Both the position numbers and the translations under genes were made by a program. Of a DNA stretch of 64,000 bases, positions 29,855 to 51,718 are shown in pieces. Where the stretch lies: positions 744,001-808,000 of the forward strand of contig NZ_JAHDTI010000003.1 of NCBI RefSeq assembly GCF_018531495.1. The letters are read 5' to 3'. The notes beneath the pieces were generated by a model, which saw nothing but the letters and a program-made list of their open reading frames with translations, did not search any database and had not been told where the DNA came from. Each line of letters starts with the position of its first letter. Position 1 is the first letter of the stretch. Source of the DNA: Nonomuraea sediminis (GTDB lineage Bacteria; Actinomycetota; Actinomycetes; Streptosporangiales; Streptosporangiaceae).

Positions 29855-29882
29855 GGCCCCAAGCCTGCCAGCTCCGAGATGT

Positions 29883-31118
29883 TCACGGGACCGACTTGAT
29901 GCGCCACACCAGGCCCGCGCCGAGCAGGGCCAGCACGGTGGCGGTCAGGAACAGGACCGGGTACCCGCCGAGACCCGACACGATCGGGCCCGCGATGACG
30001 GGGGCGATGACCTGAGGGCCCGAGTTGGCGATGTTGATGATCCCGAGGTCCTTGGCGCGGCCTTCAGCGGTGGGCAGGACCTGGGTGACCAGCGCGTTGT
30101 CGACCGCGTTGTAGACGCCGAAGCCGACGCCGAGCACGGCCGCGGCGACCATCGCGACCGGCCACAGCGGCCAGAACGCCAGCATCACGGTCGGCACCGT
30201 GGAGATGATCCCCGACACCGTGACCAGCAGCTTGCGGCGCCCGACCCGGTCGGAGATCACTCCGCCCACCACGGTGGTGAGCACGACGAACACCGTGTAG
30301 ATCAGGATCAGGATGAGCAGCCCGTCGCTGGCCTTCTGCCCGGGGAACAGCCGCTCGTACCCGACGGCGTCGGTCAGGAAGTACAGCAGGTAGAGCGTGG
30401 CCACGGAGTTGCCCAGCTGCATGAGGAAGCGGGTGATCCAGGCCCAGAAGAAGTCGGGGTGCCGCCGCGGGCTGATCCAGAAGGAACTCAGCCTGAACGG
30501 CGGGCGTTCCGCGAGCCGGAGATCGGGGGTGGTCAGCACGAACGGCAGCACGCAGAGCGGGATCACCACCGCGAGCAGCAGGTAGCCGGACCTGGTGGTG
30601 GTCGCGACCATGGTCACCAGCACGACCGCGAGGACCACCCCGACCGACTGCGGGACGCCGATCCACCCCGACACCTCGCCCCGCTGGCGGACCGGCACGT
30701 GGTCGGGCACCCCCGCGGTGAGGGAGGCCTGCATCGAGTTGAGCGCCGCCTGCGCCAGGCACCAGCCCACCGCGATCCCGACGACCGTGCTCTGGAAGGC
30801 CAGGAACGCCAGCGCGGCCCCGCCGGTCAGCGCCCCGGCCAGCGTCCACGGGTGGCGGCGCCCCCACCTGCCGATCGTGCGATCCGACAGCGCGCCCGCG
30901 ATCGGGTTGCCCAGCATCGCCACCAGCGCGCCGACGCCGGTCACCCAGGCCAGCGCGCCCTCCTTGCCGGTCGGCGCGACGGCGGCGACCTGCTCGGGTA
31001 ACAGCACCTGCAGCGGCCCGAAGTAGCCGAGGTAGAGCGCCAGGTTCCCGAGCGAGATCGTGGCGATCCACCACGGCCCGACGCGGCGGACCGGTTCCGC
31101 GAGTGCGCTACTTGTCAT
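29883..31118 (-). CDS. MFS transporter
   Basis: An integral membrane protein of 411 residues with about 12 hydrophobic helices. Loop 2-3 has the MFS signature NPIAGALSDRTIGRWGRRHP, and the equivalent second-half loop GGVISDRVGRRKLLV is also clear. Glycoside/pentoside-type or drug exporters share this length; the substrate is unknown. The start is uncertain: ATG 31133 gives five extra residues, while ATG 31118 has GAGGCGGG upstream and is preferred. It precedes the SARP-type regulator and follows a methyltransferase gene on the same strand. Confidence 0.88.
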   Translation of the reverse strand: MTSSALAEPVRRVGPWWIATISLGNLALYLGYFGPLQVLLPEQVAAVAPTGKEGALAWVTGVGALVAMLGNPIAGALSDRTIGRWGRRHPWTLAGALTGGAALAFLAFQSTVVGIAVGWCLAQAALNSMQASLTAGVPDHVPVRQRGEVSGWIGVPQSVGVVLAVVLVTMVATTTRSGYLLLAVVIPLCVLPFVLTTPDLRLAERPPFRLSSFWISPRRHPDFFWAWITRFLMQLGNSVATLYLLYFLTDAVGYERLFPGQKASDGLLILILIYTVFVVLTTVVGGVISDRVGRRKLLVTVSGIISTVPTVMLAFWPLWPVAMVAAAVLGVGFGVYNAVDNALVTQVLPTAEGRAKDLGIINIANSGPQVIAPVIAGPIVSGLGGYPVLFLTATVLALLGAGLVWRIKSVP

Positions 31119-31172
31119 CCGAGCCCGCCTCATGATCGGCTGTTGCGGGGATGCTACGCCTCTCCCCCGCCG

Positions 31173-31928
31173 TCAGGAAGACCCGTATCGCCGCGCCATC
31201 AGTACCTCGGTGACCACGCGCTCCACCCACAGGCCCGACGGGTTGTCCGCGAGCAGCGCCTCCCGCAGGGCCACCATGAAGGCGGGCAGGCGGTCGCCTA
31301 GCTTGGCGGGGGAGCTGAAGGAGTACGACAGCTGCAGCCCGATCACCGACTCCACGTCCCTGGTCAGGCTCGTCTCGAAGGTGGCGATGTCCAGGTCGGG
31401 GAAGGCGGAGACGGCCAGCAGGTCATGGGGGTGCAGACCGGTCGCCTGGAAGGAGCCTCGCGCCGCGAGCTCCCCCAGGCCGAACCGCTCGCGCAGGCGC
31501 TGCGTCACCTCGCCCCATGGCTCCGGCTCGGGGTTGCGGCCCGGACCGATCAGGGCGACCGCGCCGCCGGGCGGGAGCAGGTCGTCCAGCTCCTCGAGCA
31601 GGCGGACGCGGTCCATCCAGTGGAAGGAGCGGCCCATCACCACGTGGTCGAACGGCGGCAGCGCCCTGATCCGCGTGGAGTCGCCCAGAAGCCAGCGGAC
31701 GTTGCCCGGCGAGCGGCTCCTGCCCTCGGCGAGCATCTCCTCGTCGGGGTCGACGGCGATCACCTCGCGCACGTGCGCGGCCAGCGGGATCGCCACCGTG
31801 CCCGGGCCGCAGCCCAGGTCGAGCACGGTGCCGTCGAGCGCGCGCCCTAGGTGGTCGATCGCCTCCTCGCCATGATCGGTGCGGTAACGGACGTAGTAGG
31901 GGGCCGCGCCGCCGAAAAGATCAGTCAT
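31173..31928 (-). CDS. Class I SAM-dependent methyltransferase
   Basis: A 251-residue methyltransferase. Motif I is VLDLGCGPGTVAIPLA, the acidic residue after strand 2 is in VIAVDPDEEML, and motif post-III includes FDHVVMGRSFHWMD. The latter HWMD is seen in small-molecule and biotin/menaquinone-like methyltransferases. The substrate is unknown. Its ATG is only 16 bp from the start codon of the divergent GNAT gene, so the two promoters must overlap or lie inside the opposing coding sequences. Confidence 0.9.
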   Translation of the reverse strand: MTDLFGGAAPYYVRYRTDHGEEAIDHLGRALDGTVLDLGCGPGTVAIPLAAHVREVIAVDPDEEMLAEGRSRSPGNVRWLLGDSTRIRALPPFDHVVMGRSFHWMDRVRLLEELDDLLPPGGAVALIGPGRNPEPEPWGEVTQRLRERFGLGELAARGSFQATGLHPHDLLAVSAFPDLDIATFETSLTRDVESVIGLQLSYSFSSPAKLGDRLPAFMVALREALLADNPSGLWVERVVTEVLMARRYGSS

Positions 31929-31944
31929 AGGCCATCATCGTCAC

Positions 31945-32445
31945 ATGTCGCCATTCGAGATCCGCCCCGCGTCGCCCGCCGATTCCCAGGAGATCGAGGA
32001 CGTGCGGATCACCACGTGGAAGACGGCCTACCGGGGCGTCATGACCGACTCCTTCCTCGAGGAGTTGTCCGTCTCCCCCGCAATGGTGGACCGCCGCTCC
32101 TCGTTGCTCAGCGACGGCAGCACCCGCGGTTTCGTGGCCGTCCGCGACGGCCGGGTGCGCGGCTTCACGCTGTACGGCAAGGCCAGGGACGACGGGCACG
32201 ACGGCATGGAGGTGTACGCCATCTACGTGCTGCCGGAGGAGTTCTCCACCGGGATGGGCCGGGCCCTGATGGCCGCCTCGCTGGAGGACCTTCATGGCCA
32301 GGAGGTCGGGCTGTGGGTTCTGGCCGGCAACCCGCGGGCCAGGCGGTTCTACGAGCGGTGCGGGTTCACGGCGTCGGGGCTGGTGAAGACGGAGTCGGAT
32401 CCGCCGCTCGAGCAGGTGCACTACCGGCGCGCAGCGAGTACATGA
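31945..32445 (+). CDS. GNAT-family N-acetyltransferase
   Basis: A 166-residue single-domain GNAT. It has FEIRPASPADSQEIEDVRI at the N-terminus (strand 1/helix 1), GFTLYGKARDD on strand 4, the EVYAIYVLPEEFSTGMGRALM acetyl-CoA loop (atypical 'STGMGRA' instead of Q/RxxGxG/A), and VLAGNPRARRFYERCGFTASG at the C-terminus. Substrates may be proteins, polyamines or drugs. Its last 80 bp overlap the convergent methyltransferase gene. Confidence 0.87.
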   Translation: MSPFEIRPASPADSQEIEDVRITTWKTAYRGVMTDSFLEELSVSPAMVDRRSSLLSDGSTRGFVAVRDGRVRGFTLYGKARDDGHDGMEVYAIYVLPEEFSTGMGRALMAASLEDLHGQEVGLWVLAGNPRARRFYERCGFTASGLVKTESDPPLEQVHYRRAAST

Positions 32446-33205
32446 GCGGGATGCGCGGCCTGCCTTCCGGCATCCGGTAGCGGCCGCCGTCGGCCTCCAT
32501 CGCCCGGAAACGCTGGAAGAGCGTGAAGTCGCGCTCGTGCAGGAACTCGATCCGCAGCCCGGCCGCGCCCACGGCCGAGACCACCTCCCCCAGCCGATGG
32601 GTGAACTGCACGCTGACGGTGTGCTCCAGCGGCTCGTCACCGGTGTAGGTGTAGGGGTGGTCGTAGACCTCCGGGCCGCCCGCGAAGTAGTCGTGGGCGA
32701 CCACGCTTCCCGTCTCGTCGTCCAGCATGTCCTGGAACGGATGGAATTCGGTCAGGTACAGGAACCCGCCCGGGTTCAGCAGGGCGGCGACCGTCTCGGC
32801 CCAGCGGGTCAGGTCGGGCAGCCAGACCAGGGCGCCGATGCCCGTGTAGACGATGTCGTAGGTCTCCCCCAACGCCTCGACAGCGTCGTAGACGTCCGCG
32901 GCCACGAACCGGGCCTCCAGCTCGCAGTCGGCGGCGATCCGGCGGGCGGCGTCGACGGCCTTGCCTGAGAAGTCCAGCCCGGTGACCCTCGCCCCATGTC
33001 TGGCCCAGGCCAGGGTGTCGAGCCCGAAATGGCACTGGAGGTGGACCAGCGACTTCCCGCGCACGTCCCCCACCTCGTCGAGCTCGAAGCTCCGCAGCGG
33101 ATCCCCGCCCGCCTTGAAGCCCTCGACGTCGTAGTAGTCGCTGGCGACGTGGATCGGCACCCGGCCGTCCCAGTTGGCTCGGTTGACGGTCAGGTAGTCG
33201 TTCAT
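32366..33205 (-). CDS. Class I SAM-dependent methyltransferase
   Basis: A 279-residue protein. N-terminal NDYLTVNRANWDGRVPIH, motif I KSLVHLQCHFGLDTLAWAR, motif II VTGLDFSGKAV and YDIVYTGIGALVWLPDL define a known actinobacterial methyltransferase family. The canonical GxGxG is replaced by LQCHFGLDT, as in that family. The C-terminal tail (GSAPARAADPTPSSPAPTP) is low-complexity and lies in the region overlapping the GNAT gene. Loss of a more upstream stop may have extended the tail. The neighbouring P450 is on the same strand, 4 bp upstream. Confidence 0.87.
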   Translation of the reverse strand: MNDYLTVNRANWDGRVPIHVASDYYDVEGFKAGGDPLRSFELDEVGDVRGKSLVHLQCHFGLDTLAWARHGARVTGLDFSGKAVDAARRIAADCELEARFVAADVYDAVEALGETYDIVYTGIGALVWLPDLTRWAETVAALLNPGGFLYLTEFHPFQDMLDDETGSVVAHDYFAGGPEVYDHPYTYTGDEPLEHTVSVQFTHRLGEVVSAVGAAGLRIEFLHERDFTLFQRFRAMEADGGRYRMPEGRPRIPLMYSLRAGSAPARAADPTPSSPAPTP

Positions 33206-33209
33206 CAGG

Positions 33210-34457
33210 TCAGCCTAGGCGGCGCAGCCGTACGGGCAGGTGTTTGAGGCCGTTCTGGAAGTTGGAGGTGAGCCGGACCGGATCGCCGGTCAGCTCGACG
33301 TCCCACGCCAGCAGCTCGCGGAACACGGCGCGCAGCTGGACTCTGGCCAGGTGGGCGCCCAGGCAGAAGTGCGGGCCGAAACCGAAGCTGACGTGGTCGT
33401 TCGGGGTGCGCGCGAGATCGAACCTGTCGGGGGCGTCGAACACCTCGGGATCCCGGTTGGCGGAGGCGTGGTAGACGACCACCTTGTCGCCCCGCTCGAT
33501 CTTCTGGCCGCCCAGGGTGAGGTCCCGCGTCGCCGTACGCCTGAAGTCCATGACGGGCGGCCAGAAGCGCAGCATCTCCTCCACCGCGGAGTCGAGCAAC
33601 TCGGGGTGGGCCCGCAGCCTGGCGTGCTCGTCCGGGTGCTGGAGCAGCGTCAGCAGGCCGCCGGGGATCCCGTTGCGCAGCGTCTCGTTGCCGGCCACGG
33701 CGAACAGGAAGAACATGTTCTCGAACTCGGGCCCGGTCAGCTCGCCCATCGCCTCCATGATCGAACCCTCGCGTGGTGAGAGGGCGTGGGCGTAGGCGAA
33801 CATGTCGGTCAGCGCCGCCTTCGACCGGGGGTTCACTCCCGGGCCGAGCTCCGGCCGCGCGGCGACGGCCAGGCGACCGGCCGGGCTGAGCCGCTCGGCG
33901 TCGGCCGTCGACAGGCCCGCGTAGTCGGCGTCCTGGTAGCCGATCACGCGCGAGGCCCAGTCGTACAGCAACCGCCTGTCCTCGTCAGGCACGCCCATCA
34001 CGTGAGCCAGCGTCCAGACGGGCAGGTCGGCCACCACCTCGACGAAGTCGCACTCCCCCGCGCCGAACAGCCCGCGGGCCCTGGCCACGATCGTCTCCTC
34101 CAGCGCCCTGACGGCGCGCGGGGTGAACGCGGCCGCCACGATCCTGCGCAGCCGGGAATGCCCGGGCGGGTCGGTGTTGAGCATCATCGCCCGGACGAAC
34201 TCCAGGTCCTGCGCGGTCTCCGGGTCGCGGATCTGCGTGGCGCCCAGGTGGGAGGAGAAGTCCTCGCTGGCGCGCAGCACGTGCTTGACGTCGCGGTGAC
34301 GGAACACCGCCCAGAAGCCCGTCCCCGCCGGCCACGGGCCGACGGCCGGTTCGGGCACCCGGCACACGGGGCTGTCCCTGCGCAGGGTCGCGAACAGCTC
34401 GTACGGCACGGCCTTCGCATACGTGGACGGCAGGAACACCGCCTCCGTGTTCTCCAT
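33210..34457 (-). CDS. Cytochrome P450
   Basis: A 415-residue soluble bacterial P450. The I-helix oxygen-activation motif is FAVAGNETLRN (A254-G-N-E-T259). The K-helix ExxR is E294-R297 and the heme ligand loop FGFGPHFCLGAHLAR has Cys365. NTDPPGHSRLRRIV is the conserved C-helix region. NAD(P)H:ferredoxin partners are not nearby. ATG 34457 fits the family N-terminus; a longer frame upstream has no similarity. The start codons of this gene and the divergent thioesterase are 25 bp apart. The start of the methyltransferase follows 4 bp after its stop, so the pair is likely an operon. Confidence 0.93.
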   Translation of the reverse strand: MENTEAVFLPSTYAKAVPYELFATLRRDSPVCRVPEPAVGPWPAGTGFWAVFRHRDVKHVLRASEDFSSHLGATQIRDPETAQDLEFVRAMMLNTDPPGHSRLRRIVAAAFTPRAVRALEETIVARARGLFGAGECDFVEVVADLPVWTLAHVMGVPDEDRRLLYDWASRVIGYQDADYAGLSTADAERLSPAGRLAVAARPELGPGVNPRSKAALTDMFAYAHALSPREGSIMEAMGELTGPEFENMFFLFAVAGNETLRNGIPGGLLTLLQHPDEHARLRAHPELLDSAVEEMLRFWPPVMDFRRTATRDLTLGGQKIERGDKVVVYHASANRDPEVFDAPDRFDLARTPNDHVSFGFGPHFCLGAHLARVQLRAVFRELLAWDVELTGDPVRLTSNFQNGLKHLPVRLRRLG

Positions 34458-34482
34458 GGGGTCCAGCGTGCATGATGAGCCG

Positions 34483-34881
34483 GTGACTCCTGAAGAGATC
34501 CTCCGCGACAACTTCGCCCCCTGGGTTCTCGCCCTCGGCCTCCAGGTGGAATCGGTCGGCTCCCGCGAGGCGGTGCTGCGGCTGCCGTGGTCCTCGTCCC
34601 TGGCCAGGGAGGGCGGCGGGCTGTCGGGGCAGGCCATGATGGCCGCGGCCGACACGGCCACGGTCATCGCCATCTCCTCGGCGCGCGGCGGCTTCGTCCC
34701 GATGACGACCGTGCAGCAGTCGACGACCTTCCAGCGGCCGGTCATCGACACGGACCTGCTCGTCCACGCGCGCATCACCAAGCTCGGGCGCACGCTGGCC
34801 TTCTGCGACATCACCCTCACGCCCGCCGACGCCCCCGACCCCGCCGCCCACGCGACGACTGTTTACGCCCTTCTGTCCTAG
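34483..34881 (+). CDS. PaaI-like hotdog-fold thioesterase
   Basis: A 132-residue hotdog protein. The catalytic-loop region SLAREGGGLSGQAMMAAADTATVIA corresponds to the PaaI 'HGG...D' motif, with Gly/Ser in place of the usual His, so activity needs checking. FVPMTTVQQSTTFQRPV and LVHARITKLGRTLAFCDITL are the central strands. It would hydrolyse an acyl-CoA thioester. GTG 34483 is the only in-frame start consistent with domain length, and no clear ribosome binding site precedes it (possible leaderless mRNA). It is divergent from the P450 gene with 25 bp between the starts. Confidence 0.82.
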   Translation: MTPEEILRDNFAPWVLALGLQVESVGSREAVLRLPWSSSLAREGGGLSGQAMMAAADTATVIAISSARGGFVPMTTVQQSTTFQRPVIDTDLLVHARITKLGRTLAFCDITLTPADAPDPAAHATTVYALLS

Positions 34882-34884
34882 AGG

Positions 34885-34983
34885 TGTACGGCAAGGCCGC
34901 CGCCACCGGCCGCCCGCCGCACTCCGGCTGAGGGCCCGCGACCGGCGCTCGCGGCGAGTCGGTAGTGGTCGCCCGCCGCCACG
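34885..34983 (-). repeat. Left copy of a diverged ~95-bp inverted repeat
   Basis: The reverse complement of 34910-34982 matches 38508-38580 at 65 of 73 positions by hand alignment. Similarity continues with small gaps to CCGTAC (34886-34890 side). The repeat lies between the thioesterase stop and the hydrolase-ABC fusion gene. No transposase or target-site duplication is evident. Confidence 0.75.
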
Positions 34984-35062
34984 GCGCTCCTGATCGTGGC
35001 GCCACGGCGCTTCTGACCCTGGCGCCATGACGCTTCTGACCCCTGGCGCCACCGTGTCCTGG
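34977..35062 (+). repeat. Imperfect 23-24-bp tandem repeats
   Basis: Three full units start at 34977, 35000 and 35023, each beginning CGCCA and ending with (C)TGG, with the shared core CGCTTCTGACCC/CGCTCCTGATCG. A partial fourth unit starts at 35047. GGCGCC palindromes occur at each junction. They lie in the upstream region of the hydrolase-ABC fusion gene. Confidence 0.7.
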
Positions 35063-35081
35063 CCTGCCGTACACCCCGTGG

Positions 35082-35108
35082 TCTCAGGGTGCTCTCAGGT
35101 CGGATAAG
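35082..35108 (+). promoter_or_regulatory. Direct-repeat promoter of the hydrolase-ABC operon
   Basis: TCTCAGG occurs at 35082-35088 and 35093-35099, exactly 11 bp apart, followed 4 bp later by GATAAG (35103-35108, a -10-like box). The start codon is at 35121. Tandem 7-bp sites with one-turn spacing in the -35 position are typical of OmpR/PhoB-family activator binding; no such regulator gene lies nearby. Confidence 0.55.
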
Positions 35109-35120
35109 TAGGGTCGGGGC

Positions 35121-37637
35121 ATGAGACGTGTGGCCGCGCTGGTCGCGGTGCTGGCCCTGGTGGGGCTGGGGGCGTGGCTGGTGTGGCCGTCGGGCGGCGA
35201 CGTCCGGGGGCAGGACCAGACGATCACGGTGGTCGACGGGCCCCGCGACGACCAGCGGGTCGAGCTGGACGCCACGTACTACCCGCCGAAGGGCGGCGGG
35301 AAGGCGCCCGCCGTGCTGCTCGCCCACGGCTTCGGCGGGAGCAAGCAGAGCGTGCGCGAGCCTGCCGAGCGCCTGGCCGAGGACGGGTACGCGGTGCTGA
35401 CCTGGTCGGCGCGCGGCTTCGGCAGGTCGACGGGGCAGATCGCGCTGAACTCCCCCGACTACGAGGTCAAGGACGTCAAACAGCTGATCGACTGGCTGGC
35501 CAGGCGCCCCGAGGTCCGCCTGGACAAGGCCGGCGACCCGCGGGTGGGGATCGCGGGCGGCTCGTACGGCGGCGCCATCGCGCTGATGACGGCGGCCGCC
35601 GATCCCCGCGTGGACGCCATCGTCCCGCAGATCACCTGGTACGACCTGGCCGACGCGCTGTTCCCCGACGCGTCGGGCCAGGGACCGGCCAACGGCGTGT
35701 TCAAACGCATGTGGGCGGGCTTCTTCTTCGGCCGCGGCGGCGGCCTCGGCCAGGCCTCCGCGCAGGACCTGCTGGCGCCGCGCGCCGCCGTCCCGCTCAC
35801 CCCCGAGCAGGCCAGGTGCGGCCGCTTCCTGCCGGAGATCTGCGACATGTACCAGCAGGTGGCAAAAACGGGCAGGGCCACGCCCGAGGCGGTGGCGCTG
35901 CTGCGCGAGTCGAGCCCGAGCTCGCAGGCCGGCCGGATCAAGGCGCCCACCCTGCTCATCCAGGGACAGCGCGACTCGCTGTTCCCGCTGGCCCAGGCCG
36001 ACGCCAACGCCAGGGCCCTGGCCCCGGGGACCCCGGTGAGCATCGCCTGGTTCGACGGCGGCCACGACGGCGGCACCGGCGAGCCCGACTGGCTCTACGA
36101 CCAGACCACCGCCTGGTTCGCCCGCTACCTGAAGAACGCCCCGCAGGCGACGACCGCGAAGTTCACGGTCACCAGGGACGGCGGCCGCGACCCCGGCACC
36201 CGCCAGCGCATCCTGCTGCACCCGGAGACCGGCGCGTACCCCGGCATCGAGGGCACCGCCACCACCGACGTCACCCTCAGCGGCCCCGAGCAGAACGTGG
36301 TGAACCCGCCGGGCGGCGCGCCCGCCGCGATCTCCACCGTGCCCGGCGTCGGCGGCCTGATCGCCGGCGCGACCGCGACGGGCCCGAGCGTGGCGCTGGA
36401 CATGCCAGGCCAGAGCGCCTCGTTCGAGTCGGCCCCGCTGAAGGCTCCGCTCCAGCTCACCGGCGGCCCCGGCGTCAAGCTCAGGGTGTACGGCACGGGC
36501 GAGGTGACCCTGTTCGCCAAGCTCTACGACGTGGCCGACGCGCTGCAGCCGCCCACGCTGCCCGCCGGGCTGGTGGCGCCGTTCAGGGTGACCATCCCGC
36601 AGGGCGCCCAGTCGGCCGACGTGACTGTGCGGCTGCCGGTGGTGGACCACACCTTCCCCGCTGGGCATCGGCTGCGGCTCACGGTGGCCACGACGGACAT
36701 GGGGTACGCCACCCCGGCGGAGCCCGCCTCCTACCGCGTCGGCCTGGCCTCGCCGGCGCTCGCCGTACCGACCGTGGCGGCCATGGAGGCGCCCGCAGCC
36801 GGGCCGGCCTGGTGGGTGTGGGCGATGCCGCTGGTGGCGATCGCGGTCGCGGCCGGGATCGTGGTCACCGGGCGGACCAGGAAGTCCGATCCCGCGCCCG
36901 CGGGGACGGAGGTGCCGCTGGAGATCGCCGGGCTGACCAAGGCCTACCGCAACGGCGAGAAGGCCGTGGACGACCTGTCGTTCCGGGTCGAGCAGGGCCA
37001 GGTCCTGGGCCTGCTGGGGCCGAACGGGGCGGGCAAGACGACCACGATGCGGATGATGATGGGCCTCATCCACCCGGACGCCGGAGAGATCCGGATCTTC
37101 GGGCAGAAGGTCACGCCGGGGGCGCCGGTGCTGTCCAGGCTCGGGTCGTTCGTGGAGGGACCCGGGTTCCTGCCGCACCTGTCGGGCCGGGAGAACCTGG
37201 AGCTGTACTGGGCCGCGACCGGCCGTCCGCTGGACGAGGCGCACCTGGAGGAGGCGCTGGAGATCGCCGGGCTCGGCAAGGCGCTCGAGCGTGCCGTACG
37301 CACCTACTCCCAGGGCATGCGGCAGCGCCTGGCGATCGCGCAGGCCATGCTGGGCCTGCCCGACCTGCTCGTGCTCGACGAGCCCACCAACGGGCTCGAC
37401 CCACCCCAGATCAGGGAGATGCGCGAGGTGCTCAAGCGGTACGCCCGCGACGGCCGCACCGTGATCGTCTCCAGCCACCTGCTGGCCGAGGTCGAGCAGA
37501 CCTGCAGCCACGTGGTCGTCATGCACAGGGGCCGGCTGGTCTCGGCGGGCCCGGTGTCCAGGCTGCTGGCCTCGTCGAACGGCCACGGGCCACGCCTCGA
37601 GGACGTCTTCCTCGACCTGATCGGGGAGCAGTCATGA
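35121..37637 (+). CDS. Membrane-tethered alpha/beta hydrolase (S15/CocE-like) fused to ABC ATPase
   Basis: An 838-residue fusion. Residues 4-21 are an uncleaved signal anchor. Residues 35-340 are an alpha/beta hydrolase with oxyanion LLAHGFGG, nucleophile GGSYGG (S148), acid D285 (LLIQGQRDSL) and H315 (FDGGHDGG). About 370-545 is a jelly-roll domain like the X-Pro dipeptidyl-peptidase C-terminal domain. TM2 is at 563-583. Residues 598-838 are an ABC ATPase: Walker A GPNGAGKT (633-640), signature YSQGM (729-733), Walker B LLVLDEP (749-755). The two TM helices place the hydrolase outside and the ATPase inside. Its stop overlaps the ABC-2 permease start (ATGA). It is probably an exporter that processes or releases its cargo at the outer face; the substrate is unknown. 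Confidence 0.88.
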   Translation: MRRVAALVAVLALVGLGAWLVWPSGGDVRGQDQTITVVDGPRDDQRVELDATYYPPKGGGKAPAVLLAHGFGGSKQSVREPAERLAEDGYAVLTWSARGFGRSTGQIALNSPDYEVKDVKQLIDWLARRPEVRLDKAGDPRVGIAGGSYGGAIALMTAAADPRVDAIVPQITWYDLADALFPDASGQGPANGVFKRMWAGFFFGRGGGLGQASAQDLLAPRAAVPLTPEQARCGRFLPEICDMYQQVAKTGRATPEAVALLRESSPSSQAGRIKAPTLLIQGQRDSLFPLAQADANARALAPGTPVSIAWFDGGHDGGTGEPDWLYDQTTAWFARYLKNAPQATTAKFTVTRDGGRDPGTRQRILLHPETGAYPGIEGTATTDVTLSGPEQNVVNPPGGAPAAISTVPGVGGLIAGATATGPSVALDMPGQSASFESAPLKAPLQLTGGPGVKLRVYGTGEVTLFAKLYDVADALQPPTLPAGLVAPFRVTIPQGAQSADVTVRLPVVDHTFPAGHRLRLTVATTDMGYATPAEPASYRVGLASPALAVPTVAAMEAPAAGPAWWVWAMPLVAIAVAAGIVVTGRTRKSDPAPAGTEVPLEIAGLTKAYRNGEKAVDDLSFRVEQGQVLGLLGPNGAGKTTTMRMMMGLIHPDAGEIRIFGQKVTPGAPVLSRLGSFVEGPGFLPHLSGRENLELYWAATGRPLDEAHLEEALEIAGLGKALERAVRTYSQGMRQRLAIAQAMLGLPDLLVLDEPTNGLDPPQIREMREVLKRYARDGRTVIVSSHLLAEVEQTCSHVVVMHRGRLVSAGPVSRLLASSNGHGPRLEDVFLDLIGEQS

Positions 37638-38470
37638 CGTACGTGGCCAGTCGTACTCTGCCGCTGCGGGTGGAGATCGTCAGGCAGTTCAAGCGGCGCA
37701 GGACGCTGGTGATGTTCGGGCTGCTGCTCCTGCTGCCGTGGATCCTGGTGGTGGCCTTCCAGTTCGGGCCGCAGTCCAGCGGGCAGCAGCGCTCGGCGCT
37801 GCGGCTGTCGGACCTGGCGACCGCGGGCGGGCTGAACTTCGCGGCGTTCACGCTGTCGGTGTCGGCCACGTTCCTGCTGGTCGTGGCCGTGGCGCTGTTC
37901 TGCGGCGACACGGTGGCCAGCGAGGCGAACTGGTCGTCGCTGCGCTACCTGCTGGCCGCGCCGGTGCCGCGCGACCGGCTGCTGCGGCAGAAGCTGATCG
38001 TGGCGCTCGGCTACGCGGCCGCGGCCGTGATCAGCGTGCCGCTGATGGCGCTGCTGGCGGGCACGGTCGCCTTCGGCTGGCACGACATCCAGGTGCCCGG
38101 CACCGGCGAGCTGATCCCGGCACTCGACGTGCTGCCCAGGTTCGGCATCGTGATCGGCTACGCGCTGGTCAGCCAGTTGGTGGTGGCCGGGCTGGCGTTC
38201 CTGATCTCCACGATGACCGACTCGCCGCTGGGCGCGGTGGGCGGCGCGGTGGGGCTGTGGATCGTCAGCAACATCCTGCAGGCGGTGGAGGCGCTGGGGT
38301 CGCTGCGGGAGTTCCTGCCGACGTTCTGGAACACGGCCTGGCTGGACGCGCTGGCGCCCGAGCTGGACTGGAGCGGCATGGCCAAGGGCGCCTCGGTGTC
38401 GATCACCTACGCGGCCGTCCTGATCGCCATCGCCTTCCGCCGTTTCCGCCGCAAGGACGTGGTCTCCTGA
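37634..38470 (+). CDS. ABC-2 type transporter permease
   Basis: A 278-residue membrane protein with six predicted hydrophobic segments (roughly residues 28-48, 72-95, 120-145, 165-190, 200-220 and 250-268). The N-terminal cytoplasmic LRVEIVRQFKRRRTL and the SEANWSSLRYLLAAPVPRDRLLRQKL coupling region are typical of ABC-2 exporters. It supplies the membrane channel for the ATPase domain of the preceding fusion protein, with which it overlaps by 4 nt. The predicted complex would hold two fusion chains and two permeases. No separate substrate-binding protein is present, in keeping with export. Confidence 0.9.
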   Translation: MTYVASRTLPLRVEIVRQFKRRRTLVMFGLLLLLPWILVVAFQFGPQSSGQQRSALRLSDLATAGGLNFAAFTLSVSATFLLVVAVALFCGDTVASEANWSSLRYLLAAPVPRDRLLRQKLIVALGYAAAAVISVPLMALLAGTVAFGWHDIQVPGTGELIPALDVLPRFGIVIGYALVSQLVVAGLAFLISTMTDSPLGAVGGAVGLWIVSNILQAVEALGSLREFLPTFWNTAWLDALAPELDWSGMAKGASVSITYAAVLIAIAFRRFRRKDVVS

Positions 38471-38507
38471 GGGCTCCCCGACCACCTGGGCGGCCCACCG
38501 CGGAGTC

Positions 38508-38602
38508 GTGACGGCGGGCGACCGTCACCGACTCGCCGCAAGCGCCGGGCGCGGGTCCTCAGCCGGAGTACGGCGGGCGGGCGGTGGGGCGGCCTGCCGT
38601 AC
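38508..38602 (+). repeat. Right copy of the ~95-bp inverted repeat
   Basis: This is the inverted partner of 34885-34983, starting 37 bp after the permease stop. It contains a perfect hairpin, GTGACGG (38508-38514) / CCGTCAC (38522-38528). Several differences between the two copies fall in this stem, one as a paired change (G-C in the left copy, A-T here). It could serve as terminator of the exporter operon. The remainder up to 38639 shows no gene. Confidence 0.7.
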
Positions 38603-38639
38603 GGGGCAGCCTTGCCTGCCGGACAGACAGGTGTGCTGG

Positions 38640-38756
38640 TCAGTCCCAGTGGGGCGGGCGGTTGTCGAGGTAGAAGGCGTCGGAGTCGTCCTGGCGCCAT
38701 TCACCCCAGCCCAGGTCGGTGTCCTCGCTGGTCTGCTCAGGGAGATATTCGCTCAC
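38640..38756 (-). CDS. Small acidic conserved protein (38 residues)
   Basis: A GTG at 38756 starts a 38-codon frame ending with TGA at 38642-38640. The product begins MSEYLPEQTSEDTDLGWG and ends NRPPHWD, with a central EWRQDDSDAF. This layout (SexLPEQTxxDTDxGWGExxxD...KPPHxD) recurs as a tiny hypothetical protein in many actinomycetes as I recall it; no function is known. Composition is acidic, with no membrane segment. It is divergent from the STAND ATPase gene, and an ATG eight bases upstream is out of frame. Confidence 0.72.
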   Translation of the reverse strand: MSEYLPEQTSEDTDLGWGEWRQDDSDAFYLDNRPPHWD

Positions 38757-38876
38757 GAAGACATGCTACCGAGGCGAACAATCCTGACTCCGCCGCACTT
38801 GTGCCAGCAAGGACAGGCGGTTTGGCGCGGGGTACCATGCGAAGGCAGGTGTCGCCTATCCCCCGTGAGGCTGCCC

Positions 38877-40979
38877 ATGGCCACCCCGACAGGCTGGCGG
38901 CGAGAAGGCAATCTACCGGCGGAGCTCACCAGCTTCGTCGGCCGGACCCGGCTACTCGCCAACCTGAAGCGCCATCTGAACGAGTCACGTCTGGTGACGG
39001 TCACAGGCATCGGGGGTGTCGGCAAGTCGCGCACCGTCCTGCGCCTGGCTCACCAGGTCCGCTCGCAGTACGAGGACGGCGTGTGGTTCGCCGACCTGGC
39101 CCGGCTGCAGGACGCGGGCATGGTCAAGCACACCATCGCCTCCGCGCTCGGCATCGCCGACCAGTCCTCGCGCACGGAGTCCGAGTCGCTGTCGGAGTGG
39201 GTGGGCGAGCGGCAGATGCTGCTCATCATCGACACCTGCGAGCATCTCGTGCAGGGCTGCGCCGAGCTGGTCGAGGAACTGCTGGAGAGCAACCCCAACC
39301 TGAAGGTGCTCGCCACCAGCCGCCAGTCGCTGCACCTGCCCTACGAGCACGTCGTGCCGGTGCCGCCGCTGCTGGTGCCGGGCGACGACCCGTCGGAGAA
39401 CCTGTTCACCAACGAGTCGGTGCAGCTGTTCGCGGCACGCGCCGGGGCCGTGATGCCGGACTTCGTGCTGGACGAGGAGAACATCGTCTCGGTGGCCGAG
39501 CTGTGCCGCCGTCTGGACGGCATCCCGCTGGCGATCGAGCTGGCCGCGGTCCGGCTGCGGGCGCTGTCGGTGGAGCAGATCCTCGGGCTGCTGGCCGACC
39601 GGTTCAGCCTGCTGGCCGGCGCCAGCCGTACGGCGCTGCCCAGGCACCAGACGCTGCGCGCGGCCATCGGCTGGAGTCACGAGCTGTGCGAGCCCGCCGA
39701 GCGGCTGCTGTGGGCACGGCTGTCGGTGTTCGCCGGCGACTTCGAGCTGGACGCGGCGCGCTTCGTCTGCGCCGACGACCGGCTGCCGCAGGAGGACATC
39801 ACCGACCTGGTCACCGGGCTGGTGGAGAAGTCGATCCTGCTGATCAGGAGCAACCACGCCGGCGTGCGCTACAAGCTGATCGACACGCTGGCCGAGTACG
39901 GCGAGGAGTGGCTGGACAAGCTCGGCGAGACCGAGCGGATGCGCCACCGCCACCTGGACTACTACCTGAGCCTGGCCCAGCGTGGCGAGGACGCCTGGTC
40001 GGGGCCGCGGCAGATCTACTGGTTCGTGCGCATGCGCCAGGAGCACGACAACGTGCGCGTCGCGCTGGAGCACGCGCTGCGCACGCCGGGCAAGACCGTG
40101 CTCGCGCTGAAGCTGCTGTCGTCGCTGTGGTTCATGTGGATCTGCTGCGGCTTCACCCGTGAGGGCCGCCTGTACCTGGAGCGGGCGCTGCAGGCCAACC
40201 CGGGCGTGAGCAAGGAGCGGTGCAAGGCGCTGTGGGTGCTGTCGTACGTACGCAGCGCCCAGGGCGACAGCGCGGGCGCGCTGTCCGCCTCCGAGCAGTG
40301 CAGCACCGAGGCCGTCAGGGTCGGCGACTCCAAGGCGGTGATCCTGGCCTCGAAGATGCAGGGCACGGCCGCCCTCCTGCAGGGCGACCTGCAGAAGGCC
40401 AGCGCGCTGCTCGGCGTGGCGATCGAGTTCAACACCGACAATAAGGAGCTCAACCCCGGCCTGCTGCCCGCCATCGTGGAGCTTTCGCTCGTGCTGAACT
40501 CCCAGGGTGAGATGTACGAGGCCGAGTCTCTGCTCGCCGACTGTCTCCAGGTGTGCAAGGAGCGCGGCGAGCTGTGGGTAGCCTCCTACGCGAACTGGGC
40601 ACTGTCCATCGTCTGCCTGGCCACGGGCAGGCCGGCCGACGCGCTCCGCAGCGCTCAGGAGGCCCTGCGGATCAAACGGCACTTCCACGACACCCTCGGC
40701 ACCCTGCTGGTACTCGAGACGACCGCCCGGATCCACACCGCCCAGGACCAGATGCCCCTGGCGGCCAGGCTGCTCGGCGCGCTGCACCAGAACTGGAAGA
40801 GCGCGGGCCTGCCCATGCTCGGCGCGCCGTTCTTGACGACCGACCACGATCAGGTGGTCAAGGAGTGCAAGAAGTCGCTGGGTGAGCAGGCCTACGAGGA
40901 GTACTTCGCGGAGGGCGCCCGCCTCGACCTCGACGAGGCTTCCGCGAGCGCACTCGGTGAGCTGGACGCCATCGAATGA
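38877..40979 (+). CDS. STAND ATPase with TPR-like repeats, lacking the usual LuxR HTH
   Basis: A 700-residue protein. Residues 10-40 hold the GNLPAELTSFVGR lead-in that normally opens LuxR/AfsR-type ATPase regulators. Walker A is GIGGVGKS (44-51), Walker B is MLLIIDTCEHLV, and LATSRQSLHLP and CRRLDGIPLAIELAAVRLRALS are the NB-ARC/ARC motifs. Residues 380-690 are helical TPR-like repeats. The C-terminus ends in DEASASALGELDAIE, with no HTH, and there is none at the N-terminus. It may act as a signalling partner rather than a DNA-binding factor. ATG 38877 is preferred; GTG 38865 is an alternative. Its stop abuts the terpene synthase stop. Confidence 0.88.
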   Translation: MATPTGWRREGNLPAELTSFVGRTRLLANLKRHLNESRLVTVTGIGGVGKSRTVLRLAHQVRSQYEDGVWFADLARLQDAGMVKHTIASALGIADQSSRTESESLSEWVGERQMLLIIDTCEHLVQGCAELVEELLESNPNLKVLATSRQSLHLPYEHVVPVPPLLVPGDDPSENLFTNESVQLFAARAGAVMPDFVLDEENIVSVAELCRRLDGIPLAIELAAVRLRALSVEQILGLLADRFSLLAGASRTALPRHQTLRAAIGWSHELCEPAERLLWARLSVFAGDFELDAARFVCADDRLPQEDITDLVTGLVEKSILLIRSNHAGVRYKLIDTLAEYGEEWLDKLGETERMRHRHLDYYLSLAQRGEDAWSGPRQIYWFVRMRQEHDNVRVALEHALRTPGKTVLALKLLSSLWFMWICCGFTREGRLYLERALQANPGVSKERCKALWVLSYVRSAQGDSAGALSASEQCSTEAVRVGDSKAVILASKMQGTAALLQGDLQKASALLGVAIEFNTDNKELNPGLLPAIVELSLVLNSQGEMYEAESLLADCLQVCKERGELWVASYANWALSIVCLATGRPADALRSAQEALRIKRHFHDTLGTLLVLETTARIHTAQDQMPLAARLLGALHQNWKSAGLPMLGAPFLTTDHDQVVKECKKSLGEQAYEEYFAEGARLDLDEASASALGELDAIE

Positions 40980-41981
40980 TCAAACGGCCTCCGGCCATCG
41001 GGTGTCACGCGGCCAGGCGTGCATGTAGCGCGCGCTCCCCAGTGAGAAGGCGATGTGGCCGCGTACCCAATGCTCGAGCCCGCGAACGTACCTGCACACC
41101 GGCAGCGGGGCCCACTGGTCGACGGCCTCACGCCGCTCCAGGAAAGCCGTGATCGCGTCTTCGTGCATGCGCGAGACCTCTTCCAGCGCTTGCTGCAGGC
41201 TGTAGGAGCGGTGCGTGGCGAGAACGGTGACCAGGTTGTGCCGCGCCTTGTCGTTGGAGCGTTCCTTGGCGTAGGAGAGCATGTCGTTGTCCCACCCGAT
41301 CAGATCGCACGCCAGGTCGGACAGTAACCGCACGTCCGGGTGGTGCAACTCCTCGGCCTCGAGACAGTATCCCCCACCGACGTCGATGAGCGCGAAGCAG
41401 GTGTAGGTGGCGCCCGTGATGCGGCGCATGGCGATGTAGTCCTCGGGCGTGGGGATCCGGTCCACCTCGCGGTTGGCAGCCTCCCAGATCTGGGCGAACA
41501 GGTACTCCTTGACCGTGGTCCGCCACCGGTCGACCTGGGCGGAGCTGGCGACCTCCGAGATGCGTCCGAGAATCTCGTGGAGGGTGATCTCGAAGGCGTT
41601 GGACGGATCGGGGCGACCGCGGCCGTCGATGATCTCCAGCAGCGGCGGCAGGGCCTGGGCGACGGCGGAGGCGCGATGCCCCATCAACTCGCTCTCGCAG
41701 AACGCGTCGTCGAAGGCGAACAGCCAGTTGTACCAGTCGTTGATCAGCCGCAGGCTGTCGCGCGGCACGAGCGGGTTGGTGCGAGCGGCCAGATAGCCGA
41801 TCTTCGAGCGCTGGAAATGCTCGATGGCGTCACTTCCGGAGAGCATGTGCGATGCGGCGAGCCAGGCATGGCTCTCGGCGTCGACCTCTGCGGCATGGGT
41901 GTTGATCTCGCTGGGGAACGGGCAGGGCAGCGAGGGGATGCGGATGGGTGTGGGTGTGGCTTGCGCAGCTTTTCTAGCCAT
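40980..41981 (-). CDS. Class I terpene synthase (bacterial sesquiterpene/diterpene cyclase)
   Basis: A 333-residue cyclase. The metal-binding motifs are an acidic DDxxxE at D91-D92-E96 (FAFDDAFCE) and the NSE triad N231-D232-S235-E239 (NDMLSYAKE). Conserved RY-type C-terminal residues occur in SARYMHAWP. These bind three Mg2+ and the diphosphate of farnesyl or geranylgeranyl diphosphate, producing a cyclic terpene. The product cannot be inferred from sequence. No prenyltransferase or tailoring enzyme is adjacent; the nearest P450 and methyltransferase are about 7-9 kb away. The AT-rich upstream stretch (41990-42060, CTATATAG) is its probable promoter. Confidence 0.93.
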   Translation of the reverse strand: MARKAAQATPTPIRIPSLPCPFPSEINTHAAEVDAESHAWLAASHMLSGSDAIEHFQRSKIGYLAARTNPLVPRDSLRLINDWYNWLFAFDDAFCESELMGHRASAVAQALPPLLEIIDGRGRPDPSNAFEITLHEILGRISEVASSAQVDRWRTTVKEYLFAQIWEAANREVDRIPTPEDYIAMRRITGATYTCFALIDVGGGYCLEAEELHHPDVRLLSDLACDLIGWDNDMLSYAKERSNDKARHNLVTVLATHRSYSLQQALEEVSRMHEDAITAFLERREAVDQWAPLPVCRYVRGLEHWVRGHIAFSLGSARYMHAWPRDTRWPEAV

Positions 41982-41984
41982 GCC

Positions 41985-42051
41985 CTGATGATCGCAACGT
42001 TACAGAAACATAGCTATATAGCGCTAATAGCCTCTTTTCTCCCTTCCCCGG
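41985..42051 (-). promoter_or_regulatory. AT-rich upstream region of the terpene synthase gene
   Basis: This stretch is strikingly AT-rich for this genome, with the palindrome CTATATAG (42013 area) and TAGC...GCTA arms around it. It is the most likely promoter/operator region for the minus-strand terpene synthase. No exact -10/-35 pair can be fixed. Confidence 0.35.
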
Positions 42052-42411
42052 CTATACAAACCAGTCCTCAGTCCTGAACATGCGTGCCGCGTCGATCGCG
42101 AACGGTGTGCCTTCACATGGATCGGCACCCGCCTCCAGCAGCGCGTTCACCACATCGCGCTCCTTGTTGAACACTGCACCCCTGGCGGCCTCTGGCCCCC
42201 TGAAGTCAGCCCGGCCCGGTCGGCGCCGGGGCCGAGGTGGCGAGCCGCCGGTATCAGCAAACTGTCACCTTTGCCGTCGGCGAGGTCCTGGGCCTCGAGC
42301 GGTTCCGTGTCACCCGCCCTGGCCAGGTCGGACATCCGGGTCCCCGGCCATGCGTCCCATTCCTCATCGATAAAGTGCGCTGCACGGAATCGTTCCGGCT
42401 CGCCGTAGGTT
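42052..42411 (-). pseudogene. Decayed ankyrin-repeat protein gene
   Basis: Two frames of the minus strand keep parts of an ankyrin protein. Upstream (about 42405-42235) reads IDEEWDAWPG, then MSDLARAGDTEPLEAQDLAD and GKGDSLLIPAARHL, the usual first repeat of bacterial ankyrin proteins. Downstream, in another frame, is GAVFNKERDVVNALLEAGAD followed by PCEGTPFAIDAARMF and a TAG at 42054-42052. The middle repeat is missing or scrambled and the frames do not join, so it is broken by at least one deletion and a frameshift. No intact start was found. Confidence 0.7.
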
Positions 42412-42446
42412 CAGGAGAGAGTACCTAAGGGAAAGGCTGTCCAACC

Positions 42447-43349
42447 GTGTTCGACCCGACGGACCTCTATAAGCTCGCCGACGACGTGCCGTCGCTCGCC
42501 GAGCCGGTGCTGCTTTACCACTTCGACGGTTTCGTCGACGCGGGCGGCGCCGGGCGGCTCGCGCTCGGCCACCTGCTCGCCGAGCTGGAGCACCGGGTTG
42601 TCGCGACCTTTGACGTGGACCGGCTCCTCGACTATCGCTCCCGGCGGCCGATCATGACCTTCGACACCGACCGGTGGGTCGAGATCGAGAGTCCGGAACT
42701 AGCGGTCCACGCGACCCAGGACGCGACCGGCACCCCGTTCCTGATCATGACTGGGCCGGAGCCCGACCGTGAGTGGGAGGTGTTCACTCAGGCCGTGGGC
42801 GCGATGGTCGACTATTTCGGGGTGAGCAAGCTGGTCACCGTGCACGGCATCCCGATGGCGGTGCCGCACACGCGGCCGCTCGGCCTCACCATGCACGCCA
42901 GCCGCCCTGAGCTGATCAACGCCCAGACCAGCTCCTTCGGCCGGGTCCAGGTGCCGGGCAGCGCGGCCGCGCTGCTCGAGTTCCGTCTGGGCGCCCAGGG
43001 CCACGACGCGCTCGGCTACGCGGTCCACGTGCCGCACTACCTGTCGCAGGCCGAGTACCCGACCGCCGCGGTCACGGCCCTGGAGGCGGTCACGCGCGGG
43101 ACGGGGCTGGTCTTCCCGATGGACACGCTGCGCGACGCCGCCGAGCGGACGCTGACGGAGATCGAGGAGCAGATCCAGGCCTCCTCCGAGCTGTCGACCG
43201 CGATCAGCGGGCTGGAGCAGCAGTACGACGCGTTCGCGGCGGGCTCCGACCGCGAGAACCTGATGGCCGAGCCCATCCCCATGCCCACGGGCGACGAGCT
43301 CGCCGCCCAGTTCGAGGCCTTCCTCGCCGACAGGGAGGAAGACCTCTAG
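42447..43349 (+). CDS. PAC2-family protein (proteasome assembly chaperone-like)
   Basis: A 300-residue protein of the PAC2 family, common in Actinobacteria. Typical segments are VLLYHFDGFVDAGGAGRLAL near the N-terminus, VATFDVDRLLDYRSRRPIMTF, and FLIMTGPEPDREWEVFTQAV. The central VTVHGIPMAVPHTRPLGLTMHA and the C-terminal helical tail with EIEEQIQASSELSTAI also fit. Relatives of eukaryotic PAC2 assist 20S proteasome assembly, and actinobacteria do have proteasomes, but the bacterial role is unproven. GTG 42447 follows AAGGGAAAGG. Its stop shares CTAG with the convergent SDR gene. Confidence 0.9.
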   Translation: MFDPTDLYKLADDVPSLAEPVLLYHFDGFVDAGGAGRLALGHLLAELEHRVVATFDVDRLLDYRSRRPIMTFDTDRWVEIESPELAVHATQDATGTPFLIMTGPEPDREWEVFTQAVGAMVDYFGVSKLVTVHGIPMAVPHTRPLGLTMHASRPELINAQTSSFGRVQVPGSAAALLEFRLGAQGHDALGYAVHVPHYLSQAEYPTAAVTALEAVTRGTGLVFPMDTLRDAAERTLTEIEEQIQASSELSTAISGLEQQYDAFAAGSDRENLMAEPIPMPTGDELAAQFEAFLADREEDL

Positions 43350-44107
43350 AGCCGGGGTCCGAGGAAGCAGCCGCCGGAGGCGTCGATGACCTGGCCGGTC
43401 ACCCAGCGCCCGGCCTCGGAGGCCAGGAAGCCGACCACGTCGGCGATGTCGGCGGGCTGCCCGGCCCTGGGGATGGCGTTGCCGCTGCCGACCATCTGCT
43501 GGACCTGCGGGTTGTCCTGCATCCACGGGTTCATGTCCGTGACGGTCGGGCCGGGCGAAACGGCGTTGACCGTGATGCCGCGCGGGCCGACCACGTTGGC
43601 CAGGCTCAGCGCCAGCACCTCCGCGGGCGCCTTGCTCATCGAGTAGCCGAGCTCGGGCATCGCGATGCGGGTGGCGCCCGTGGAGATGTTGACGATGCGG
43701 CCGCCGTCGTTGAGCAGGGGCAGCGCCCGCTGGGTGATGAACAGCGGCGCCTTGGCGTTGACGGCGATCAGCCGGTCGAACACCTCGGGCGTGATCTCGT
43801 CGATCGACGAGGGCGCGTTGATCGCCGCGTTGTTCACCAGGACGTCCAGCCGTACCTGTCCCGTGCGCTGGCGCAGCCCGGCCTCGAGCCCGGCGAACAG
43901 CGTGTCGACGTCGCCGGGTGCGCCGAGCAGCGCGCGGACGGGGAAGGCCTGCCCGCCCTGCTTCTCGATCAGCGTGATCGTCTCGTGGGCGGCCGCCTCG
44001 TTCTCGCCGTAGTGCACGGCCACCAGCGCGCCGTCGGCCGCCAGCCGCTGCGCGATGGCCCGGCCGATTCCCCGCGAAGCACCCGTCACCAGAGCGGTCC
44101 TGATCAT
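43346..44107 (-). CDS. Short-chain dehydrogenase/reductase
   Basis: A 253-residue SDR. Cofactor motif TGASRGIG is at the N-terminus, followed by NNAAINAPSS (NNAG variant). The catalytic Ser is in IVNISTGAT and Tyr-Lys is in GYSMSKAPAEV. PGPTVTDM is the usual loop and the C-terminus ends GGCFLGP(R). Basic residues after the glycine motif (HYGENEAAA region) suggest NADPH use. ATG 44107 is chosen over 44119, since GGAGAAGG lies just ahead of it. The gene is divergent from the Gfo/Idh oxidoreductase and converges on PAC2, sharing the stop-codon CTAG. Confidence 0.9.
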   Translation of the reverse strand: MIRTALVTGASRGIGRAIAQRLAADGALVAVHYGENEAAAHETITLIEKQGGQAFPVRALLGAPGDVDTLFAGLEAGLRQRTGQVRLDVLVNNAAINAPSSIDEITPEVFDRLIAVNAKAPLFITQRALPLLNDGGRIVNISTGATRIAMPELGYSMSKAPAEVLALSLANVVGPRGITVNAVSPGPTVTDMNPWMQDNPQVQQMVGSGNAIPRAGQPADIADVVGFLASEAGRWVTGQVIDASGGCFLGPRL

Positions 44108-44195
44108 GTCCTTCTCCATTCGTCGTGGTTGACGGAACAGAGATTCCCCGGTGCCGCTGACCGCCCGCTGACAACCTGCTGACTACGCTGGGCCG

Positions 44196-46024: not shown

Positions 46025-46088
46025 TGATTCGACCCTATATGTCCGCCAAAGCTGAGCGGATTCGAGGTTCATAACGCAGCATGAACGT

Positions 46089-49470: not shown

Positions 49471-49500
49471 TGAACACCCCCTCTGGGGTGATTCAACGCG

Positions 49501-49532
49501 ATGGGGTACGGCTCGCGCCAGCCGTACCCCAT
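49501..49532 (-). terminator. Perfect 13-bp hairpin after the M6 metalloprotease gene
   Basis: ATGGGGTACGGCT (49501-49513) and AGCCGTACCCCAT (49520-49532) are perfect inverted arms with a 6-nt loop, beginning 8 nt beyond the protease stop codon in the minus direction and ending 31 nt before the NB-ARC start. No U-tract follows, as in many high-GC terminators. Confidence 0.75.
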
Positions 49533-49539
49533 CATTCAC

Positions 49540-51618: not shown

Positions 51619-51718
51619 GCATTGGACGGTATAGACGATGTTGACGGAGATCATCGGGCAGTTGTAGGGAAGAGCTGTGGATTTATTTCCGGCATATGTC
51701 GAAACGTCCAGGTGAGCT

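Follow-up and report, generated by a model that had tools for sequence, protein, structure and literature searches.

A hydrolase–ATPase fusion gene overlaps a permease gene

The 64,000-nucleotide stretch of Nonomuraea sediminis contig NZ_JAHDTI010000003.1 analysed here (the window, in whose positions all coordinates are given) carries a two-gene unit that spans exactly 35121–38470 and pairs a putative outer-face hydrolase and an ATP-binding cassette (ABC) ATPase, joined in one chain, with an ABC-2 permease. The fusion gene is a single ATG-initiated frame of 838 residues at 35121–37637 (+) with zero internal stops in its translation. Along this chain, by which residues are numbered, follow a first transmembrane helix (TM1), an S15/CocE-like hydrolase, a PepX_C-like beta domain, a second transmembrane helix (TM2) and the ATPase. 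All three Pfam domains score above their cut-offs: Peptidase_S15 at residues 47–288 (91 bits, cut-off 23), PepX_C at 429–535 (41 bits, cut-off 22.5) and ABC_tran at 617–757 (107 bits, cut-off 25). The permease starts with an ATG at 37634, before the fusion stop codon ends at 37637, giving an overlap of 4 nucleotides (Table 1). An earlier note, made from the sequence alone, had described this 838-codon frame with its hydrolase, two helices and ATPase, the triad Ser148/Asp285/His315 and the overlap, and frame translation, Pfam and the aligned homologues bear it out on each of these.

An AlphaFold2 (AF2) model built from 30 homologues (mean predicted local distance difference test score (pLDDT) 77, predicted template modelling score 0.63) gave the same order: a helix at 2–20, an alpha/beta domain, a domain of mostly beta structure extending to about residue 551, a helix at 564–583 and the ATPase. 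Stretches with pLDDT below 50 include 203–226, 400–426, 584–595, 679–687 and 724–728.

Table 1 Features of the fusion–permease unit (window coordinates)
Feature	Position	Strand	Basis
Fusion gene, 838 residues	35121..37637	+	Open frame; Pfam above cut-off; intact in 80/80 kept loci
TM1, N-terminal signal anchor, residues ~4–22	35130..35186	+	Hydropathy, AF2 helix
Alpha/beta hydrolase, S15/CocE-like, predicted outside, residues ~45–340	35253..36140	+	Pfam, pLDDT
Catalytic Ser148 (GxSYGG)	35562..35564	+	131/131 distinct sequences
Cys233 to Cys241, probable disulfide, outer domain	35817..35843	+	Cys conservation
Catalytic Asp285	35973..35975	+	131/131 distinct sequences
Catalytic His315	36063..36065	+	131/131 distinct sequences
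PepX_C-like beta domain, residues ~345–552	36153..36776	+	Pfam; mostly beta in AF2
TM2, residues 564–583, then GRTRK	36810..36869	+	AF2 helix, hydropathy, charge bias
ABC ATPase, predicted cytoplasmic, residues ~600–834	36918..37622	+	ABC_tran; invariant catalytic residues
ABC-2 permease, six hydrophobic segments	37634..38470	+	ABC2_membrane_2 and _4; 4-nucleotide overlap

Both active sites and the permease linkage are conserved

A search of genome contigs yielded 573 confirmed relatives, of which the best 80 were kept, and in 80/80 of these the fusion is one open frame. The kept records are named Nonomuraea, Streptosporangium, Planomonospora, Actinomadura, Streptomyces, Kitasatospora and other actinobacteria. 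The earlier note had allowed that the frame might reflect a sequencing error joining genes that are separate elsewhere; the intact frames do not bear this out, and no split hydrolase/ATPase homologue was seen among the loci examined.

For residue conservation we aligned 132 sequences, 131 of them distinct, comprising the 80 kept loci, 51 others and the window; left out were ten duplicate retrievals, L113 (cut by a contig end), L114 (which lacks the hydrolase) and L159 (broken frame in the hydrolase). The set was gathered by whole-fusion similarity and may omit decayed members, with no filter on the triad. Ser148, Asp285, His315, Lys639, Asp753, Glu754 and His786 are invariant in 131/131 distinct sequences, so that Ser148 and the Walker A lysine, which the earlier note had proposed to compare, are equally conserved. 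Because these active sites are invariant while the lowest identities to the window are 0.42 (hydrolase core), 0.28 (beta domain) and 0.55 (ATPase), both activities appear to be under selection. In L159 (genome G416), the hydrolase frame shifts near profile positions 214–222, through either decay or sequencing error.

The permease is equally tied to the fusion, lying within 193 nucleotides downstream of its stop codon in 144/144 other loci checked. The 4-nucleotide overlap recurs in 124/144 of them (115/132 once the ten duplicate retrievals and two incomplete-fusion loci are removed) and in 72 of the 80 kept loci (the best 80 of 573).

The fusion is common in the window's family and patchy beyond it. 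At E ≤ 1e-150, strong matches, some partial or in pieces, were found in 100/150 genomes of the family and 89/345 of the class, and at E ≤ 1e-100 in 26 of 396 genomes drawn from the phylum. Twenty-four of these 26 are complete fusions (the window's own counted, G194 included); the other two are L113, cut by a contig end, and G220 (L114), which has ATPase and permease without a hydrolase. Genomes of 1.3–1.7 Mb are among those that carry it. The window's genome has one copy, the other 147 of its 148 matches covering parts of the profile, nearly all the ATPase, and no separate close copy of the hydrolase was found there (other matches ≤45 bits and ≤38% identity). Among plasmid records, tblastn at E ≤ 1e-60 matched two, both from Actinomycetota. 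The 11.85-Mb record NZ_LT559118.1 (L125) is filed as 'plasmid I' of Nonomuraea gerenzanensis and, being so large, is probably a chromosome.

Databases already list the fusion under half of its nature, since a Tsukamurella record annotates the homologue as 'alpha/beta fold hydrolase' and the next gene as 'ABC transporter permease'. A search of the open-licence literature found no description of a hydrolase–ATPase fusion, in agreement with the earlier note, which knew of no characterisation. The individual parts belong to known kinds; new is their arrangement, which is conserved and can be tested.

The hydrolase is predicted to lie outside the membrane and the ATPase inside

TM1 of the window fusion has a hydropathy of 2.44 over 19 residues and is modelled as helix 2–20 with low confidence (pLDDT 57–65), TM2 as helix 564–583 with moderate confidence (pLDDT 61–72). 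Across the 132 sequences, TM2 hydropathy exceeds 1.6 in 131, and Lys/Arg are more frequent after TM2 than before it in all 132. TM1, sought in at most 75 residues ahead of the hydrolase with start codons not fixed, exceeds 1.6 in 110/132, and Lys/Arg are more frequent before it than after it in 122/132. Cys233 and Cys241 are each present in 130/132 sequences, and the ectodomain holds exactly two cysteines in 130 and none in 2. Based on this charge bias and the conserved cysteine pair, a topology with the N-terminus inside, the hydrolase outside and the ATPase inside is well supported, as the earlier note had proposed in placing enzyme and motor on opposite membrane faces.

A lipase-like ectodomain with an ABC-2 motor and permease

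Both Pfam domains of the ectodomain recur in the fusion members scanned (E ≤ 0.001), Peptidase_S15 in 30/30 and PepX_C in 29/30. The modelled hydrolase reaches pLDDT 73–96 over residues 31–200 (one block at 78) and 75–93 over 241–340, with poor values in the cap (201–240). An ectodomain profile, made from 26 of the 30 rows of alignment A1, had as its top solved match the 505-residue 'Lipase' 8yzn, with 8yzo alike (E ~6e-31); structural relatives were identified here from sequence profiles rather than by fold comparison. The 8yzn alignment runs in two stretches that cover both ectodomain domains and bring all three triad residues into line, and cocaine esterase matched through the beta domain at about 1e-8. 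A literature search for 8yzn or 8yzo found no related paper. With a lipase as its top solved match, the ectodomain should not be taken for an X-Pro peptidase on the strength of the S15 label. The ectodomain thus resembles S15/CocE hydrolases and lipases such as 8yzn and cocaine esterase in its alpha/beta core, Ser-Asp-His triad and C-terminal beta domain; its solved relatives, however, carry no ABC ATPase in the chain, whereas the fusion hydrolase is predicted to be membrane-tethered and is fused to one.

The ATPase has Walker A, signature, Walker B and H-loop motifs, and G633, K639, S730, G732, D753, E754 and H786 are present in 132/132 aligned sequences. Its top solved matches are ABCA phospholipid transporters (~1e-58, two ATPase stretches per chain), and among single-ATPase chains 1vpl (1e-44) and NosF (1e-43). 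The best NCBIfam models, lantibiotic protection (184 bits) and DrrA (176 bits), are both far below their cut-offs. The permease matches ABC2_membrane_2 (48.5 bits, cut-off 27.2) and ABC2_membrane_4 above cut-off, and its hydrophobic segments, six in number, follow a positive-inside pattern. No match to the FtsX or MacB families was found in it at E ≤ 0.001, and its profile had no match among solved structures at E up to 1.

In their ATPase motifs, ABC-2 permease and adjacent overlapping genes, the pair is like DrrAB-type exporters, but in its ATPase chain two transmembrane helices and a ~500-residue hydrolase precede the motor. It also differs from DrrA in that the Pfam scan matched no DrrA-type C-terminal domain in the fusion, a domain that the paralogue L115 matches just below cut-off (25.6 versus 27.4 bits). 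ABCA lipid transporters hold ATPase and transmembrane domains in one chain, whereas the permease here is a separate gene. NosDFY and FtsEX are likewise motors serving an outer protein, although their partners are separate proteins and the permease here lacks an FtsX match.

Related operons and a single origin of the fusion

A permease profile searched over the 396 phylum genomes (E ≤ 1e-18) matched 67 of them, at 25 places above 300 bits and 56 below. We fetched 20 hand-chosen regions among the weaker places, and the hydrolase profile had zero matches in them at E ≤ 1e-4. In fourteen, a protein resembling the anchored one of L115 is encoded first, then an ATPase and a permease. Three (L165, L166 and L180) are ATPase–permease pairs without a hydrolase match, L165 covering about 1 kb upstream, and three (L179, L181 and L182) have other arrangements.

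The three-gene operons comprise L167–L178, L183, L184 and, in the window's own genome, L115 (C11, ~748700–752100), whose first protein is N-anchored. Thirteen of the 15 partner proteins were aligned; at E ≤ 0.01, eight of the 13 match MucB_RseB, four DUF2092, two LolA and one a CBM13-like family, and all 14 solved structures matched by their profile at E up to 1 belong to MucB or LolA (best E 0.0017). DUF2092 is described as LolA-like, with a hydrophobic cavity, in an excerpt of PMC4520260. These operons possibly represent a little-described ABC-2 class with a lipid-carrier-like outer partner and suggest that dedicated modules at the outer face occur more widely among ABC-2 transporters. They share with the fusion unit a homologous ATPase and permease in the same gene order, partner first, but their partner is a separate protein that the hydrolase profile does not match, whereas that of the fusion is a fused enzyme. 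Conversely, no LolA, MucB or DUF2092 domain was found in the fusion, the permease or the two adjoining genes scanned.

The origin of the fusion was examined in a tree of ATPase plus permease containing 40 hand-chosen fusions of the 131 loci and rooted, by choice, on L181. When L179 is left out, all fusions fall in a single clade (ultrafast bootstrap 90), to which the three bare pairs are joined next (81); the LolA/MucB-type operons, L182 included, stand apart (100). A single origin of the fusion is well supported by this tree, and the bare motor–permease pairs of these three loci appear to be the nearest relatives of its motor–permease pair. On the simplest reading, the hydrolase would have been gained once by fusion, with descent and losses thereafter.

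When included, L179 falls inside the fusion clade on a long branch, with outer nodes of 92 and 100 and inner nodes of 35–51. It encodes a single 600-residue chain (L179:5584–7386) made of an N-terminal hydrophobic helix, ATPase and permease, with no hydrolase. This placement suggests that L179 lost the hydrolase and fused the permease, in which case its helix would be a remnant of TM2.

Proposed function and alternatives

Starting from the observed fusion, the conservation of both its active sites and its linked permease, we propose an ABC-2 exporter or lipid translocator whose outer esterase or lipase acts on the substrate delivered to it, a reading whose chances of being right or wrong we judge about evenly balanced. 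Two fusion chains and two permeases would probably form one ABC-2 type transporter, a stoichiometry taken from ABC-2 systems generally, in which each ATPase subunit carries, via TM1 and TM2, a lipase- or esterase-like serine hydrolase at the outer face. Motor and permease would carry a lipophilic substrate with an ester bond to the outer leaflet or outside the cell, where the hydrolase heads may cleave it as it emerges or transfer an acyl group from it; cleavage would make export irreversible or mature the product. The direction of transport, the lipid-like substrate and its sharing between enzyme and pump, which the earlier note had already proposed, are what we infer here; given the lipase match and the LolA/MucB-like partners of the related operons, the most economical guess is that the substrate is lipid-like or carries acyl groups. 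Only tentatively do we go further, to a lipase-headed ABC lipid translocator in which the hydrolase replaces the LolA/MucB-like partner and ATP turnover and hydrolysis are mechanically linked through TM2.

Several points weigh against coupled export and outer hydrolysis. TM1 is only weakly hydrophobic (1.21–1.58) in 22/132 sequences, its charge bias is equal in 7 and reversed in 3 of 132, and the L128 ectodomain contains a stretch of TM-like hydropathy. The lipase match of the ectodomain is remote, as are the individually weak LolA/MucB matches of the partner proteins. The ABCA E-values sum two ATPase stretches per chain and ABC-2 ATPases all resemble one another, so this similarity is given little weight and would tell little about lipids. 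L179 shows that the pump can exist without the enzyme, and across lineages no gene but the permease was seen at a fixed place beside the fusion in the 118 loci compared for their neighbours.

Coupled export and outer hydrolysis is nevertheless favoured over its rivals, of which the main one is an ATP-gated ecto-hydrolase that transports nothing and whose ATP cycle switches the outer enzyme through TM2 and the permease. FtsEX switches cell-wall hydrolases on and off, and here a transmembrane helix ties hydrolase to ATPase in a direct mechanical link, with both active sites invariant; the lack of an FtsX or MacB match in the permease, and an apparent sister group of bare pairs without hydrolase, which better suits a transporter than a switch, make this rival unlikely, if still worth serious attention. 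Next comes defence, with the outer hydrolase inactivating an ester-bearing antibiotic or lipid and the pump clearing the compound from the membrane. While the best NCBIfam models (lantibiotic protection and DrrA, both far below cut-off) and the TetR-type protein scanned in one member of an 11-locus cluster beside the fusion speak for such a role, broad drug defence would be surprising to keep in genomes of 1.3–1.7 Mb, regulators and neighbours vary between lineages, and we regard it as improbable.

Least probable among the functional readings, and by our estimate very improbable, is an importer, in which the hydrolase would break down an ester or peptide outside the cell and the ABC-2 part would take up the product: S15/CocE hydrolases scavenge in some bacteria, but most ABC-2 systems export or translocate outward, and no conserved binding protein was seen at the loci, where the permease alone keeps its place. 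The possibility that the frame is an error of sequencing or assembly, or that the fusion arose by chance in one genome, had the first sighting in a single genome in its favour and nothing more, and is refuted by the intact frames of the kept loci and the 24 complete fusions among the phylum genomes.

If coupled export and outer hydrolysis is right, the fusion would be a conserved single-chain link, in several lineages, between ATP use inside the cell and enzyme chemistry outside it, kept even in genomes of about 1.3 Mb. Actinomycetota are known for antibiotics and unusual envelope lipids. Because both active sites lie in one gene, the coupling is directly testable by single-residue mutants.

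Gene neighbourhood

In the 118 loci (window slice 27001–47000 included), we called genes with a simple GC rule and grouped them into clusters; this rule missed many permeases owing to antisense shadow frames, and permeases were therefore counted separately. Each cluster was named after scanning one to three of its members. A handful of common families, a 9-locus cluster among them, occur in more than one lineage, at scattered places. Other clusters are confined to single lineages: CopD-like (21 loci), an unassigned ~400-residue protein (23), a STAND/TPR regulator (23), an MFS transporter (20), terpene synthase (15), TetR (11) and P450 (10). The TetR cluster, so named from the one member scanned, adjoins the fusion mostly on Actinomadura contigs. 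Overall, the neighbours give no firm clue to the substrate.

In small genomes, copper-monooxygenase-like and CopM-like genes lie beside the fusion (L126:5211–6314 (−), L126:9713–10327 (+) and L128:2336–3457 (−)), and the CopD-like gene lies near it in 21 loci of another lineage. The scores are 83 bits for CopM (cut-off 90) and 70 bits for one CopD member (cut-off 195). A copper link was set aside, the window slice having no member of the CopD cluster.

Within the window, 40980–41981 (−) encodes a terpene synthase whose closest model, 4-epi-cubebol synthase, scores 331 bits, below its cut-off of 500; its cluster is found in 15/118 loci, several of them beside a STAND/TPR regulator such as that at 38508–40979. 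The gene at 33210–34820 (−) falls in a cluster whose scanned member, from L012, is a cytochrome P450, and because its listed start overlaps an opposite-strand hotdog thioesterase gene (34423–34881 (+)), the true start is probably further in. At 46942–51654 (−), an NB-ARC/TPR protein (865 residues) adjoins an M6-peptidase-like protein (704 residues) on the same strand.

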